Below are positions 1 to 7,621 of a DNA stretch of 10,478 nt, one piece after another. The stretch is from Nitrospirales bacterium (lineage in GTDB: Bacteria; Nitrospirota; Nitrospiria; Nitrospirales; UBA8639): NCBI GenBank assembly GCA_013817135.1, contig JACDDF010000036.1, positions 1 through 10,478 of the forward strand, written 5' to 3'. Position 1 is the first letter of the stretch. Every line of letters begins with the position of its first letter. A model generated the notes under the pieces. It worked only from the letters and a program-made list of their open reading frames with translations, did no database searches and was not told where the DNA came from. The translations under genes and the position numbers were made by a program.

Positions 1-1848
1 CCCTAAGTCCTTCAATTGATCAAGCATGACGACCACTTCATGTAAGCCGGCTTGACGATAAACACGATCAACCAATTTCGTCAGCTCTTTTTTCGTCATA
101 AGCTGATTCACATGCGAAAAAGGCATGCTGGCTGGCAGCACTTCAGAAAGAATCACTCGCCCAACCGTGGTATCGATCATATCTCCATCAATTCTTACTT
201 TTACCCTCGCCTGCTCATCCACTTCCTGCGAATCATAGGCAATTCGAACTTCTTCTGTGGACGAAAAGATCTTCCCTTCGCCACGGGCACCATCACGATC
301 CTTCGTCAGCCAGTAGCACCCTAACACCATGTCCTGGGATGGAATGGACAAGGGGCGGCCATTGGCAGGCGAAAGGACATTATTGGCCGCCATCATTAAT
401 ACCCGGCATTCAATTTGGGCTTCCACCGAAAGCGGAACGTGGACAGCCATTTGATCACCATCAAAGTCAGCATTAAAGGCCGCACAGACTAACGGATGAA
501 GACGAATAGCCTTCCCTTCAACCAAAATAGGGTCAAAGGCCTGAATCCCCAGACGATGAAGCGTTGGAGCACGATTCAACATGACCGGATGCTCCCGAAT
601 GACCTCATCAAGGACATCCCAGACTTCGGGACGTTCCTTCTCGACCAAACGCTTGGCACTTTTAATTGTGGTAGCCGCACCACGTTCTTCCAATTTATGG
701 AAGATGAACGGCTTAAATAATTCTAAAGCCATTTTTTTAGGCAATCCGCATTGGTTAAGCCGCAATTCAGGACCAACCACAATTACCGAGCGCCCGGAGT
801 AATCCACCCGTTTCCCCAAGAGGTTCTGTCTGAATCGACCCTGTTTTCCTTTAAGCATATCGCTCAAGGATTTCAAAGGACGTTTATTGGCACCACGAAT
901 GACCCGACCACGACGACCGTTATCGAACAACGCATCGACCGCCTCCTGAAGCATACGCATCTCATTCCGGATAATGACACCAGGAGCCTTCAATTCCACC
1001 AGTCGCTTAAGTCGGTTATTGCGGTTTATCACTCGCCGGTAGAGGTCATTAAGATCCGACGTTGCGAACCGCCCTCCATCCAAGGGCACCAAAGGGCGAA
1101 GCTCAGGTGGCAACACAGGAATGGCATCCATAATCATCCATTCCGGGTTATTTCCAGACTTATGAAAAGCCTCAATGACCTTTAATCGTTTTGTAAGTTT
1201 TTTTCCTACAGCCGCGGAGGTCGTACTTTTAATCTTGACATGTCGCTCATCCCACAAGGCATTGATATCAACTTTGCGCAATAATTCCCGAATAGCTTCA
1301 GCTCCAATACCCACCTTAAAAGAATTGGCCCCATACTCCTCAACACACTCACGATATCTTTCCTCCGTCAAGAGCTCCCGTTCTTTCAAATTCGTATTGC
1401 CGGGATCCAGGACCACGTAAGCCTCAAAATACAGAATCTTTTCCAGCTGCTTTAAACTCATATCCAAAAGAATCCCAATTCGGCTTGGCACACCCTTGAG
1501 AAACCAAATATGGGCAACAGGAGCAGCCAATTCGATATGGCCCATTCTCTCACGTCGAACTTTTGACTGAATGACTTCCACGCCACATTTATCACATACG
1601 ATACCGCGGTGTTTCATTCGCTTGTATTTACCGCAATTACATTCCCAATCTTTCGTTGGTCCGAATATTTTTGCGCAAAATAACCCATCCCGCTCAGGCT
1701 TAAAGGACCGATAGTTGATCGTCTCAGGCTTTTTTACCTCGCCGTAAGACCACGAGCGAATCTTCTCGGGCGAGGCGATACGAATCCGCATAGCATCAAA
1801 CGAAACTGCGTCACGAGGTTTTTCAAAAAGCGAATAGATACTGTCCAA
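1..1848 (-). CDS. rpoC: RNA polymerase beta' subunit RpoC, N-terminal part (cut by window edge)
   Basis: Encodes the first 616 residues of the largest subunit of DNA-dependent RNA polymerase, which carries the catalytic Mg2+ site. The family is usually about 1,350-1,450 residues, so less than half is present; the frame is open to the window edge. The N-terminus reads [21 protein letters not shown], then [15 protein letters not shown] zinc-binding element with four cysteines (CNCGKYK...GIVCDKCG) lies near residues 68-90. The [17 protein letters not shown] block is present. The catalytic loop [12 protein letters not shown] is intact, with the three Mg2+-binding aspartates at about 461, 463 and 465. 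The start is TTG at 1846-1848, chosen because GGAGG sits 7 nt upstream, no ATG or GTG is available nearby in frame, and the family begins at this point. It follows rpoB by 53 nt and is surely co-transcribed with it. Nothing suggests a frameshift. Identification is very secure. Confidence 0.98.
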
Positions 1849-1901: not shown

Positions 1902-4900
1902 CTAATCAGCAGATTTGATCAGCTCCACATCCAACCCCAAACTCTGCAATTCCTTTACTAACACATTAAAGGACTCCGGAAGACCCGGCTCAAGGAAGTT
2001 CTCTCCCTTCACGATCGCTTCATACATTCGTGACCGTCCAGGCACATCATCCGATTTCACCGTCAAAAATTCCTGCAAGGTGGAAGCCGCCCCATACGCC
2101 TGAAGAGCCCAGACCTCCATCTCTCCTAAGCGTTGACCACCGAATTGAGCTTTTCCTCCAAGCGGTTGCTGCGTAACCAATGAATACGGCCCTATTGAGC
2201 GAGCGTGAATCTTATCGTCCACCAAATGGTGAAGCTTCAACATATACATGTACCCAACCGTGACTGGACTTTTAAACGGTTCTCCTGTCCGGCCATCATA
2301 CACAACCGATTGTCCTGATTCCGGGAGGTTTGCTTTTTTCAATAACTCTTTAATTTCCTTTTCCGATGCCCCATCGAAAACAGGGGTCTCAACCTGAATT
2401 CCTAAAGTTTTGGCCGCCCAGCCTAAATGAGTCTCCAGAATTTGTCCTACATTCATTCGAGAGGGAACGCCAAGCGGATTCAGGACAATTTGAACGGGCG
2501 TTCCATCAGGGAGATACGGCATATCTTCCTCGGCCATGATTCTTGAAACGACGCCCTTATTTCCATGACGACCGGCCATTTTATCGCCAACGGCAATTTT
2601 TCTCTTAATCGCTAAATACACCTTAACAAGCTTAATGACACCAGGAGGCAATTCATCGCCACGTCGAAGACGACCAACCTTTTCATCGTATTGCGTCTGC
2701 AAGATTTCGATTTGGTCTTTCGCTTCCCGCTCAATTTCATCAAGTTTTTTCTGTTCTTCAGCGTCAGCTAGAATCACCCGACGCGCATCATCATCAGACA
2801 ATTTACGAAGGACTTCAGCGGTAATACGCCCTTTTTTCTTTAGAATCACTTCTCCACTATCGGGATCCATTAAATCACGCCCGACAAATTGCCCAAGCAA
2901 GAGCTTTCGAATCTTTCGATTTCGCTCTTCTTCGATAATTCTCAATTCTTCCTGATAGTCCCGCTCGACTTTAACGCGATCATCCGTCTCGATTGTCCGT
3001 GACCGCTCATCTTTATCTACGCCTTTTCGGGAGAAGATCTTGACGTCCACAACAATACCTTCAATGCCTGGGGGAACCTGAAGCGAAGTATCCTTCACAT
3101 CTCCAGCCTTTTCCCCAAAAATCGCACGCAACAATTTCTCCTCCGGCGTCAGCTGAGTCTCTCCTTTAGGCGTGACTTTTCCAACAAGAATATCACCAGG
3201 TTTGACTTCGGCACCAATTCGGACAATGCCACTTTCATCCAAATTCCGAAGAGCCTCTTCCCCTAGGTTAGGAATATCGCGAGTGATTTCTTCTTTTCCT
3301 AACTTCGTATCACGCGCCTCCACTTCGAACTCTTCGATATGGATAGAGGTAAACACATCCTCTTTAACCATTTTCTCACTCAAAAGAATGGCATCCTCAT
3401 AGTTGTATCCACCCCATGGCATAAAGGCGACGAGCACATTTTTTCCCAACGCCAATTCTCCGCGATCCATCGCTGGACCATCCGCTAGCACTTGACCTTG
3501 CTTGACCGGCTGCCCAATTCGAACAATGGGAGTTTGGGTGATACAAGTATTTTGATTCGTCCGCTGAAATTTAATCAAATCATAGGTATCCAGAATACGG
3601 GAACCTTTTTTCTTGTCATCCTTTTCCTTGAGTCCAGTTCTCACTACAATTCTTCTCGCATCAACCGACTCAACAATCCCATCTCGTTGAGCGATAGCCA
3701 AATATCCAGAATCTCTTGCTACGACAGCTTCCATTCCCGTTCCGACCAAAGGGGCCTCACTTTTAATTGTGGGGACTGCCTGGCGTTGCATATTCGAACC
3801 CATAAGCGCCCGGTTGGCGTCATCATGCTCAAGAAATGGAATTAACGCAGTCGCCACGCTGACTACCTGCTTAGGAGATACATCGAGATAGTCCACCTTA
3901 TCTGGAGTAGTGGTCACAAATTCCCCTGCTTCTCTAGCCGTAATCGTTTCCGACGTGAGCGTCCCATCCTTATCCATCGCTGAATTAGCTTGAGCGATAA
4001 CAACCTGATCTCCATCCAAAGGCGAGAGGAATTCAACCTCGTCTGTTACCCGACCTTTTTTAACTTTCCGAAATGGAGCTTCAATAAAACCAAACTCATT
4101 GATCCGAGCGTAGGTAGCTAATGAAGTAATCAACCCAATATTGGGTCCCTCTGGAGTTTCAATAGGACAAATACGACTATAATGAGACGGATGAACGTCC
4201 CGCACCTCAAAACCTGCACGTTCCCTTGTCAAACCACCTGGCCCCAATGCAGACAGTCTGCGTTTATGGGTGATCTCTGCCAACGGGTTAGTTTGATCCA
4301 TAAACTGCGACAACTGACTACCGGCAAAAAATTCCTTAATGGCACCGACTATAGGTTTCGCATTGATCAGGTCATGGGGCAACACGGTTTCCATATCTAA
4401 CAGATTCATCCGCTCTTTAATGCTTCGTTCCATTCTAGCCAGACCAATACGGATTTGATTTTCCAATAACTCACCAACTGAACGAACACGACGATTTCCT
4501 AAATGGTCAATGTCATCAACTGCACCTTTTCCAGCTTTAAGATCCACTAAACATCTCACCACTTCCACAATATCTTGAGCGGATAACGTCCTTTGCTCCA
4601 TTGACAAATCAAGGTTAAATCGCTTGTTCATTTTCAACCGACCAACAGGGGAAAGGTCATAACGCTTGGGATTTAAAAAGAGATTTTCAAACAACAACTT
4701 TGCCGACTCGATGGATGGCATCTCCCCAGGCCGAAGGCGTTTATAAATTTCAACCCAGGCTTCTTCCTTTGAATTGGTCCGCTCGGCTTCCAATGTATCC
4801 AGAATGACAGGACTGGTGGTAGGGCTATCCAGGTAAATAACCTTAAATCCTTCAACTCCACTTTCCAGAATTCGCTCCATCACCGATGCCGTGAGTCGTT

Positions 4901-5867
4901 GATTTTTTTCTAAAATTACCTCCTGAGTCCCAGGATCCACCAGTTCGGTTAAGACGGCTCGACCAACCAAATCTTCTTGTTTGATAGGAATATCTTTGAT
5001 TCCAGCTGCACGGATACGCCCCATGAGGGTTTTATTGAGCTTGGCACCTTCTTTGACTAATAGTTCGCCAGAACCCTTCTCAAAGAGGTCGGAAGGAGAT
5101 CTCAATCCTGCATGAATGTCGGGATCCAGCTTGCGGAGCAAGGCACCATTCTCGACGCGCACTTCCTCTACGGGGTAATACATCTTAAGAAGATCATCCG
5201 TGCTAAAACCAAAACCTTTTAATAAAATTGTCGCCGGCATCTTCCTGCGGCGATCAATTCGTACATACAAAATATCTTTGGCATCATATTCAAAATCCAG
5301 CCACGACCCCCGATAAGGAATGATCCGACCAGAAAACAAGACTTTGCCACTTGAATGTGTTCGGCCCTTATCATGGCCAAATGATGGCCCAGGCGATCGA
5401 TGCAACTGACTAACTGCCACCCTCTCCGTGCCATTCACCATAAAGGTGCCGCGGTCGGTCATCAAAGGCAGCTCCCCGACATAGACTTCTTGCTCTCTAA
5501 CATCCAACACCCTATTTTTCACACTTTTATCTTGTTGATCGAAAACGACCAGCCGCACACGAAGTTTTAAAGGTGCAGCAAAGGTCATTCCCTGCTCAAT
5601 ACATTCCCTAGTGTCATACTTTGGAGTTCCCAAAGAATAGCTGGAAAATTCTAAAATGGCCGAATTATTATAATCCATAATGGGAAACACACTTTTAAAC
5701 GCTGCATGCAATCCCTTGTCCTCACGACGATCCGGCAATGTTTCCGCCTGCAAAAATTCCTCATAAGATCGGCGCTGCACTTCAACTAAATCCGGAATTT
5801 CAATATGTGAGCGAATTTTTGAAAAGCTATGTCGCTGAACACTGCCCTCAAAGGCTGGTTGTCCCAT
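1902..5867 (-). CDS. rpoB: RNA polymerase beta subunit RpoB
   Basis: Full-length 1,321-residue second-largest subunit of RNA polymerase. It forms one side of the active-site cleft and the rifampicin pocket. The ATG start at 5867 has a textbook TAAGGAG 6 nt upstream. The N-terminal beta lobe includes [11 protein letters not shown]. Rifampicin cluster I ([13 protein letters not shown]...[10 protein letters not shown]) spans about residues 517-543. Residues equivalent to E. coli Gln513, Asp516, His526 and Ser531 are Gln521, Asp524, His534 and Ser539, so this cluster looks drug-sensitive in type, with Thr for Asn518. The block [16 protein letters not shown], the coiled-coil-like stretch before [26 protein letters not shown], and the C-terminal [22 protein letters not shown] clamp anchor are all intact. 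One conserved N-terminal loop is substituted ([11 protein letters not shown], residues 158-168). It lies between rplL and rpoC in the standard order. Identification is very secure. Confidence 0.99.
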
Positions 5868-5962: not shown

Positions 5963-6358
5963 CTACTTTACTTCTACAGTTGCACCAACGTCTTGAAGTT
6001 TTTTCTTAATAGTTTCAGATTCCTCTTTGGACACGCCCTCCTTCACCGCCTTCGGGGCCGCTTCAACGAGGTCTTTGGCTTCCTTCAAGCCCAACCCTGT
6101 AATCTCTCGCACCACCTTGATGACTTGAATCTTTTTATCCGCTGGGGCAGTACCCAGGACTACCGTAAACTCCGTCTGTTCTTCAGCGGCAGGAGCCGCA
6201 GCGCCCGCTGCAGCAGCCATGACACCAACCGGGGCAGCTGCCGTCACACCAAATCGATCCTCCAGACCCTTAACAAGATCAGACAATTCCAGGACACTCA
6301 TGCCCTCTATAACCTTAATGAAATCTTCTTTTGACATTTTAGTCTCTGTTGCGCTCAT
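5963..6358 (-). CDS. rplL: Ribosomal protein L7/L12, internal start within the L10 frame
   Basis: Separate L7/L12 (bL12) product of 131 residues, if translation initiates internally. L12 forms the flexible multi-copy stalk that recruits and stimulates EF-Tu, EF-G, IF2 and release factors. The N-terminal dimerisation and L10-binding domain is residues 8-38 ([20 protein letters not shown] onward). An Ala/Pro-rich hinge follows (about 39-61). The C-terminal factor-binding domain is about 62-131 ([27 protein letters not shown], ending VEVK). The ATG at 6358 is chosen because AAAGGAG lies 8 nt upstream. The downstream ATG at 6337 matches the usual family start (MSKED) but has no comparable binding site, so the protein carries a 7-residue extension, MSATETK. 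The ORF is in the same frame as L10, with no stop between. The strong internal binding site suggests free L12 is still made. Confidence 0.85.
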
Positions 6359-6898
6359 CTCCCCTTCTCCTTTCTGCGTTTTGTTTTCTTGTATTGCGGC
6401 TAATACCGCAACAATACTTCTTACAATTTGACCTAATACCCCGACAAAACCTCGAATTGGCCCTTGGAAGGCCGACAACAACATCGACAACAATTCTGTC
6501 TTTGACGGCAAATCCGCCACAGCCGAGATACGAGCAGTATCTAACTCGACTCCGTCCAGAATTGCCCCCTTGAGCAGCAATTTCTCTTCACATTTTTCAC
6601 TTTTAATAAAATCACGAATAACTTTCGCGGGCAAAACGGGATCATCGTATCCAATTACCAATGCCGATTGACCCTTAAAGAAGGGTTGCAAAGGAACAAG
6701 GCCTGTTCCCGCAATAGCCCTTACGGCAAGCGTGTTCTTCACCACATGGAAATTTGACTTCGCCTGCCGAAGTTTTTTCCGCAAATCATTTATTTGATTC
6801 ACGGGCATGCCTGCGCATTCTGTTACGATGGCTATCCGCGCTCGAGCGAATTGTTCATGCATGACTGCCACAGCTTCATTTTTATCAGTTTTTTTCAT
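5963..6898 (-). CDS. rplJ-rplL: Ribosomal proteins L10 and L7/L12 in one continuous frame (apparent L10-L12 fusion)
   Basis: A single 311-residue frame covers what are normally two genes. Residues 1 to about 174 are L10 (uL10). They begin [20 protein letters not shown], include the NTLAVRA and FKGQSALV blocks of the rRNA-binding domain, and end in the long C-terminal helix ([17 protein letters not shown] to AAIQENKT) on which L12 dimers assemble. There is no stop where L10 proteins normally end. The frame continues through a short linker, QKGEGE, into a complete L7/L12 from residue 181. The linker is encoded by the rplL Shine-Dalgarno region. The ATG start at 6898 has AGGTGAG 8 nt upstream. 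The gene follows rplA by 30 nt. Both domains look intact, with no missing motif. Either this is a genuine fusion of the stalk base and stalk proteins, or a nucleotide error or recent mutation removed the rplJ stop. Several linker codons (CAG, AAA, GGA, GAA, GAG) are one substitution from a stop. Family assignment is certain; the fusion as a biological state is not. Confidence 0.9.
6367..6373 (-). promoter_or_regulatory. Internal ribosome binding site for rplL inside the L10 frame
   Basis: AAAGGAG on the minus strand, 8 nt before the rplL ATG, followed by a purine-rich AAGGGGAG. Read as codons it gives the QKGEGE linker of the fused protein. It supports independent, possibly higher-level, initiation of L12. 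Seen directly; its activity is inferred. Confidence 0.7.
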
Positions 6899-6928
6899 AC
6901 CTCGAACTCACCTGCTGAGATTAAAGTT

Positions 6929-7621
6929 TCAACTGACCTGCTTTGCAATCGCGACTCCGTCTAGATGGATACCCGGTCCCATCGTGCTGGATAATGTCGC
7001 ACTTTTCACATACTTCCCTTTACTGGAAGAGGGCTTAGCCTTCATGATGGAATCAAAAACCGACTGGGCATTTTCTCTAATTTGTTGCCCCTGAAAAGAA
7101 ACTTTTCCAACAGGAACATGAATGTTGCCTGCCTTATCCACCTTATACTCAACTCTCCCCCTTCTGATCTCCTGAATCGCTTTCCCAACTTCAAAGGTCA
7201 CCGTTCCAGTTTTGGGATTTGGCATTAACCCTCGTGGCCCCAAAACTTTACCCATTCTTCCGACAGCACCCATCATGTCTGGGGTCGCAATCATGGAGTC
7301 AAAATCCAGCCACCCATCTTGAATTTTCTGCAAAAGGTCATCGCTCCCCACAAAATCGGCCCCAGCCTCCCTGGCCTCCTGTTCTTTTTCTCCTTTTGCA
7401 ATCACTAAAATTCTGACTTTTTTCCCCGTTCCGTGAGGAAGGACCGTGGTCCCGCGAACCATCTGATCCGCACGCTTGGGATCTACCCCAAGGCAAAGTG
7501 ACAGTTCTACCGTCTCATCGAATTTGGCAAAAGCAGCCTGCTTAACCAGGTCACTCGCCTCCTCCAATGAATACAGGCCCTTTGTTACCTTCGCTAAAGC
7601 CGATTCAAATTTCTTTCCCAC
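6929..7621 (-). CDS. rplA: Ribosomal protein L1
   Basis: Large-subunit protein uL1, 230 residues, the usual length. It forms the mobile L1 stalk at the E site, which helps deacylated tRNA leave, and in many bacteria it represses translation of the rplK-rplA mRNA. Recognisable blocks are [33 protein letters not shown], the [10 protein letters not shown] region, [21 protein letters not shown], and [20 protein letters not shown] near the C-terminus. The start is a GTG at 7619-7621 with AGAGGGT 7 nt upstream. A nearby ATG (7626-7628) is out of frame and abuts the binding site. It follows rplK by 36 nt and precedes rplJ by 30 nt. No oddity in the protein; identification is secure. Confidence 0.98.

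Follow-up and report, generated by a model that had tools for sequence, protein, structure and literature searches.

A fused rplJ-rplL gene conserved across the order Nitrospirales, with two likely products, L10-L12 and free L12, from one reading frame

Introduction

The contact between the ribosomal proteins L10 (uL10) and L12 (bL12) is essential, non-covalent and multi-copy in well-studied bacterial ribosomes, and the long C-terminal helix of L10 is the carrier of the L12 dimers. One L10 is reported to bind several L12 dimers, their number can be predicted from the L10 tail, and the copies of L12 amount to four in E. coli and B. subtilis and six in Thermotoga and Thermus (PMC6021402). In the window, the whole stretch of 10,478 nucleotides analysed here, both proteins are encoded in a single open frame. 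The question raised by this locus is what such a gene produces, how far it has spread and from where the stalk would obtain its remaining copies of L12.

Results and Discussion

The fused frame and its predicted structure

The features of the locus are collected in Table 1. The frame of 311 codons opens with an ATG at 6898 and closes with a TAG ending at 5963, and the window ORF list and the translation contain no internal stop. In the 311-residue product NCBIfam placed L10 at residues 5-173 and L12 at residues 187-311, and Pfam placed L10 at 1-98, the L12 dimerisation domain at 190-235 and the L12 C-terminal domain at 244-311. The first-pass annotation had described a single stop-free frame of L10, linker and L12, and translation, NCBIfam and Pfam confirmed it; its further statement that elongating ribosomes would be expected to make one L10-L12 polypeptide is supported by the same stop-free frame. 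The whole-protein L10 family NF000955 was matched at 159.4 bits against a cut-off of 85, although the L10 part does not end as a separate polypeptide after its helix, the stop codon being absent. The L12 part scored above the cut-off for PF16320, PF00542 and TIGR00855, with both the dimerisation and the factor-binding domain present. The source genome (assembly 84.6% complete, 645 contigs) gave one match only to the fused gene. The locus lies in a minus-strand run which we take to be rpoC-rpoB-rplL-rplJ-rplA-rplK-nusG-secE-tRNA(Trp)-rpmG-tuf, where the names other than those of the stalk genes and the tRNA are putative.

Table 1: Features of the fused locus and its neighbours in the window
Feature	Position	Strand	Size	Remarks
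Fused rplJ-rplL	5963..6898	(-)	311 aa, ~33.2 kDa	Open frame with L10 and L12 domains
L10 (uL10) module	6374..6898	(-)	Residues 1-175	Long C-terminal helix 133-175 included
Linker KGEGE	6359..6373	(-)	Residues 176-180	DNA AAAGGAGAAGGGGAG, also the rplL Shine-Dalgarno (SD) sequence
Internal ATG (M181)	6356..6358	(-)		Predicted start of free L12; ATG in 106/106 loci
L12 (bL12) module	5963..6358	(-)	131 aa, ~13.7 kDa if free	Pfam and NCBIfam
rplA-rplJ gap	6899..6928	(-)	30 nt	L10 leader model has 138 positions
rplA (L1), upstream neighbour	6929..7621	(-)		Putative name
rpoB, downstream neighbour	1902..5867	(-)		Putative name
rpoC frame	1..1848	(-)		Opens with TTG as listed; extends past the window start

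The AlphaFold model of the product, computed with 102 alignment rows, had an overall pLDDT of 68.5, with values of 81-90 for L10 up to residue 170 (85-90 in the C-terminal helix up to that residue) and of 58 for residues 171-180. The model contains an unbroken helix at 133-175 followed by a disordered joint at 177-187 with pLDDT below 50. In the L12 part much of 219-311 is below 50 and the N-terminal hairpin is at 55-65. An earlier model on 46 fused sequences was poorer (pLDDT 61.3). As the joint and L12 are poorly modelled, the model bears nothing on docking. Foldseek matched L10 structures, among them 1zax, the L10-L12 complex of T. maritima.

Spread of the fusion

The order referred to here is the window's own, Nitrospirales, and the class survey comprised 196 genomes, 162 of them in the order. 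An essentially full-length match with no stop was obtained in 148 of the 162 (two begin at residue 2 or 7 and three finish at 310), three were broken by contig ends and 11 were unmatched. The whole-genome protein search of 59 relatives matched 57, and 56 of these cross the joint without a stop; in the 57th (G045) the joint is cut off by contig ends on either side, and G002 and G054, the genomes that gave no match, were unmatched for L1 too. Loss or separation of the genes in the 11 unmatched order genomes was considered and rejected, as the neighbouring L1 was matched in none of them. When RpoB was searched in four of the 11, three gave no match and one matched only from query residue 62. With L1 missing from all 11, and rpoB missing or incomplete in the four, the stretch is, for near-complete genomes, absent from the data, and the genes are not shown to be separate.

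The first-pass annotation had suggested comparing rplJ-rplL in relatives. In the locus DNA all 68 order loci (L031 repeats L007) are fused with no stop at the joint, and all 98 outgroup loci, of which 19 belong to the same phylum and 79 to other groups, are split, meaning that L10 and L12 occupy different stop-free frames. Outside the order, among the matches listed, the full-length ones carry stops and the remainder match as two pieces. The open joint across the order is far beyond chance, where the counts over related genomes are to be read as non-independent and the third-base constraint test alone uses a tree.

The linker as a ribosome-binding site

The joint was analysed in 106 fused loci taken from 108 rows, leaving out L191, where the contig ends before the L12 start, and the duplicate L031. 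In the window the linker DNA followed by ATG (6356-6373) forms a good SD and start codon for L12 and is simultaneously coding. The ATG at the L12 start was found in every one of the 106 loci; in 100 it stands in the aligned column, and in the 6 loci of family f2 it comes one codon earlier. The anti-SD pairing of bases -18 to -3 reached -7 kcal/mol or lower in 106/106 loci compared to 17% of 685 other in-frame ATGs, and the L12 start (position 181) ranked first for SD strength among the 304 codon positions scored. The residue after this ATG was S, P, A or T in all 106 loci, while a small residue follows other internal Met in 295/687. The SD spacing is variable: the GGAG core is often 8 nt from the ATG, and many loci have a further SD-like run closer to it. 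In the four f4 loci the SD is limited to the GGAG core, and that of L026 is solely of the GGGGGA type.

The codon-level constraint was counted on a tree built without the joint. The Gly177 codon is GGA or GGG in 97/97 loci having Gly, with 0 purine/pyrimidine third-base changes against 14-23 at eleven non-linker Gly columns; the other linker glycine, Gly179, had 5 such changes. The median over 56 fourfold columns was 17 changes, and the lowest values after the two linker glycines were 7, 8, 8 and 11. Lys176 showed 2 changes compared to 8-24 at 22 other Lys columns. The linker itself occurs as KGEGE, KGDGS, KEDS, KGMGE and others across the loci. In the nine loci where Glu replaces Gly177 the GGAGG core is kept, and since the core outlasts the change of residue, selection on protein alone does not readily explain the conservation of the linker, which points to a constraint sitting on the DNA. 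The ribosome-binding site of rplL, translated in frame, forms the linker, and the conserved SD and ATG indicate that free L12 is probably also made from the same frame by internal initiation. The earlier reading of the locus appears right in expecting a fusion polypeptide, but it overlooked that the linker is a conserved SD with an ATG in 106/106 loci.

In-frame internal starts giving a long and a short product are present in infB and clpB. The fused gene is similar to these in having one frame and, as predicted here, two products from two starts; it differs in that the shorter of the two is an entire ribosomal protein and has to bind the longer one as well.

L12 supply and composition of the stalk

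The L12 genes were counted by a PF00542 search in 117 order genomes, namely the window's own and those at least 95% complete. Exactly one strong match (at least 96 bits) was present in 113 of them and none in the other four, where L1 was absent too, rpoB was absent in three and the fourth matched rpoB only from query residue 62. A second full-length L12 gene was not found in the 117 genomes by this search. As a separate observation, 19 weak partial matches of 21-32 bits occurred in 18 genomes, six of them above the Pfam cut-off of 25.9 and none full length; the open reading frames concerned, of 91-166 residues (for example in G089, G112, G151, G169, G170 and G178), carry an L12-like domain in other proteins. 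Several L12 dimers per ribosome are the rule (PMC6021402), and the fused gene, as the only full L12 source found in these genomes, would have to supply the free L12.

The L10 tail aligns gap-free with that of L10 from Thermotoga maritima (1zav), which has 180 residues, as far as residue 179 of the latter, and local alignments with the L10 of B. subtilis and of E. coli end earlier than this. On the strength of this agreement with the three-site Thermotoga helix, six L12 per L10 are predicted, one tethered and five free. The canonical L10(L12)4 and L10(L12)6 stalks share with the fused locus the domains, the gene order, the three-site tail length and a strong SD before the L12 ATG, whereas the fused locus has no intergenic stop, carries the SD inside the coding sequence and is predicted to join one L12 covalently to L10.

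The reading held likely is that of an ancient, order-wide rplJ-rplL fusion with two products from one frame, L10-L12 and free L12. Ribosomes starting at rplJ would read through the joint to give L10-L12, and other ribosomes would start at the in-frame L12 ATG by means of the SD encoded in the linker to give free L12. The free L12 would then pair with the tethered L12 and fill the remaining sites of the L10 tail, so that each stalk would bear one covalent L12 and free others. With somewhat less confidence, though still on the favoured side, the stalk may be asymmetric throughout the order, with the L12 built into L10 nucleating the assembly of free L12, the frame of linker and SD setting the ratio, and the ancestral L10 leader having been lost before.

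Competing explanations

Cutting of the fusion in its linker by a protease, giving ordinary separate L10 and L12, is an unlikely but the best surviving of the other explanations. The predicted disorder of the linker would suit a protease, but no single cleavage motif is conserved among the linker variants given above, and cleavage alone yields L10 and L12 at 1:1, so that internal starts would still be needed.

It is less probable again that the fusion is the sole product, the ATG and the SD being relics and each ribosome having a single tethered L12. The lack of another full L12 gene in the search and the inability of elongating ribosomes to avoid the fusion are in its favour. Relics should decay, yet the third base of Gly177 shows no purine/pyrimidine change over the tree, the SD survives where residue 177 became Glu, and all 106 loci have kept both the ATG and a small residue after it. 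The L10 tail also retains the length of a three-site helix.

Programmed frameshifting at the joint, by which L10 would end in a share of the ribosomes, is very improbable. An SD-like stretch is present in frame, a +1-frame TGA overlaps the ATG in 16/106 loci and a stop in the other frame lies 22 nt before the ATG in 38/106, but the position of the first out-of-frame stop is common to at most 38/106 loci in either frame, and no conserved slippery site with a nearby stop was seen at the joint in the 106 loci. The first-pass annotation had offered as its alternative an error of sequencing or assembly, or a loss of the rplJ stop specific to one strain. Both can be set aside in spite of the fragmented assembly that holds the window (645 contigs), the error being refuted by an identical open joint conserved across many assemblies of the order, including the single-contig G010, G018, G029 and G053, and the strain-specific loss finding no support in an order-wide fusion.

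Probable origin of the fusion and probable loss of the leader

The fusion was traced in a maximum-likelihood tree of 105 rows, comprising 52 fused sequences of the order, 9 further proteins that look fused and 44 split relatives. All 52 order sequences fell in one clade with support 99/85. Next to it, with weak support (84/40), is a fused group of 322-323 aa, and then the split family f8. In all three loci of f8, a spacer of 43-44 nt lies between the rplJ stop TAA and rplL and contains AAAGGAG shortly before the rplL ATG, and this AAAGGAG core ahead of rplL is common to f8 and the fused loci. It had been proposed that a point change between TAG and the CAG found at the natural end of L10 opened the frame. 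This origin is unlikely, as the stop and the spacer of 43-44 nt in the nearest split relatives make a deletion likelier than a point change. The fusion probably arose by a deletion that took away most of the short spacer together with the rplJ stop, an event that would have left the rplL SD directly after the last L10 codons.

Compared with the 138 positions of the leader model, the 30-nt gap between rplA and rplJ cannot accommodate the autoregulatory leader known for L10. In the fused loci this gap has a median of 31 nt and a range of 17-147 nt (97 loci with L1 found); it is 6-307 nt in 19 split relatives of the phylum and has a median of 274 nt in 73 others, 11 of which are under 80 nt. Neither the window nor 20 fused loci nor 17 split relatives of the phylum gave an Rfam L10_leader (RF00557) match at the gathering score. 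With the threshold relaxed to E up to 1, the 20 fused loci again gave none, and weak matches appeared in 3 of the 17 split relatives (E 0.17-0.31, 30.5-31.9 bits against 44); two of these lie immediately upstream of rplJ, and the third overlaps the rplJ start. The leader was probably lost before the fusion, since short gaps of 20, 20 and 77 nt are already present in the split f8 loci L155, L156 and L157. One study describes rplJL in B. subtilis as autoregulated by L10(L12)4 (PMC4538822). Autoregulation of this type seems absent in the fused lineage.

Fused proteins outside the order

The fused group of 322-323 aa (P0302, P0310, P0319, P0322 and P0329) consists of metagenome proteins and was found when proteins 171-544 residues long were searched with an L12 from Geobacter, the best 120 of 4796 matches being listed. 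It resembles the order fusion in having L10 and L12 in one frame with the Met kept at the L12 start, and differs in its longer linker; it is known from protein sequence alone. Both domains were present in at least 13 proteins (13 of the 120 matches listed, of 4796), and as the list holds 120 of 4796 matches, further L10-L12 fusions may exist. Four proteins were not counted as extra cases. P0299 and P0312 look like single records with deletions, and P0345, which the tree places among the Burkholderiales, has the appearance of a single indel. The fourth, P0341, is an isolated L10-L12 protein of 314 aa from one metagenome contig on a long branch, and, lying away from the Nitrospira group, it is possibly an independent fusion or an error. 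The family PF27436 is precomputed on most of the fused proteins among those listed and is absent from the Pfam search of P0001.

Earlier records

The Nitrospira defluvii record P0211 (311 aa) is named "Fused 50S ribosomal proteins L10 and L7/L12 (modular protein)", which indicates that an annotator had already noticed the fusion. It is the same fusion and a member of the order-wide set, and its name is silent on the internal start and on the spread; its predicted tryptic peptide spanning the joint is GEGDMSAAAGTK. Among the matches listed, the other named records of fused proteins are called L7/L12, L10 or hypothetical, and most rows are nameless. A description of an L10-L12 fusion was not found in the open-access literature searched, a scope outside which the main survey of L12 stoichiometry lies (Davydov 2013). 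The earlier remark that there was no well-described bacterial example agrees with this search and needs amending for the one N. defluvii record already named as fused. What appears new is the order-wide fixation, the single source of L12 and the selected SD inside the linker.

Conclusion

At this locus a ribosome-binding site has clearly been taken into the protein sequence and is apparently selected for both roles. A natural covalent L10-L12 offers a test of whether L12 exchange, the number of free arms or the ratio of L10 to L12 synthesis matters. Nitrospira are major nitrite oxidisers of soils and treatment plants. If the two-product reading is true, the ribosomes of the Nitrospirales, including those of nitrite-oxidising Nitrospira, would work with a stalk bearing one permanently attached arm.
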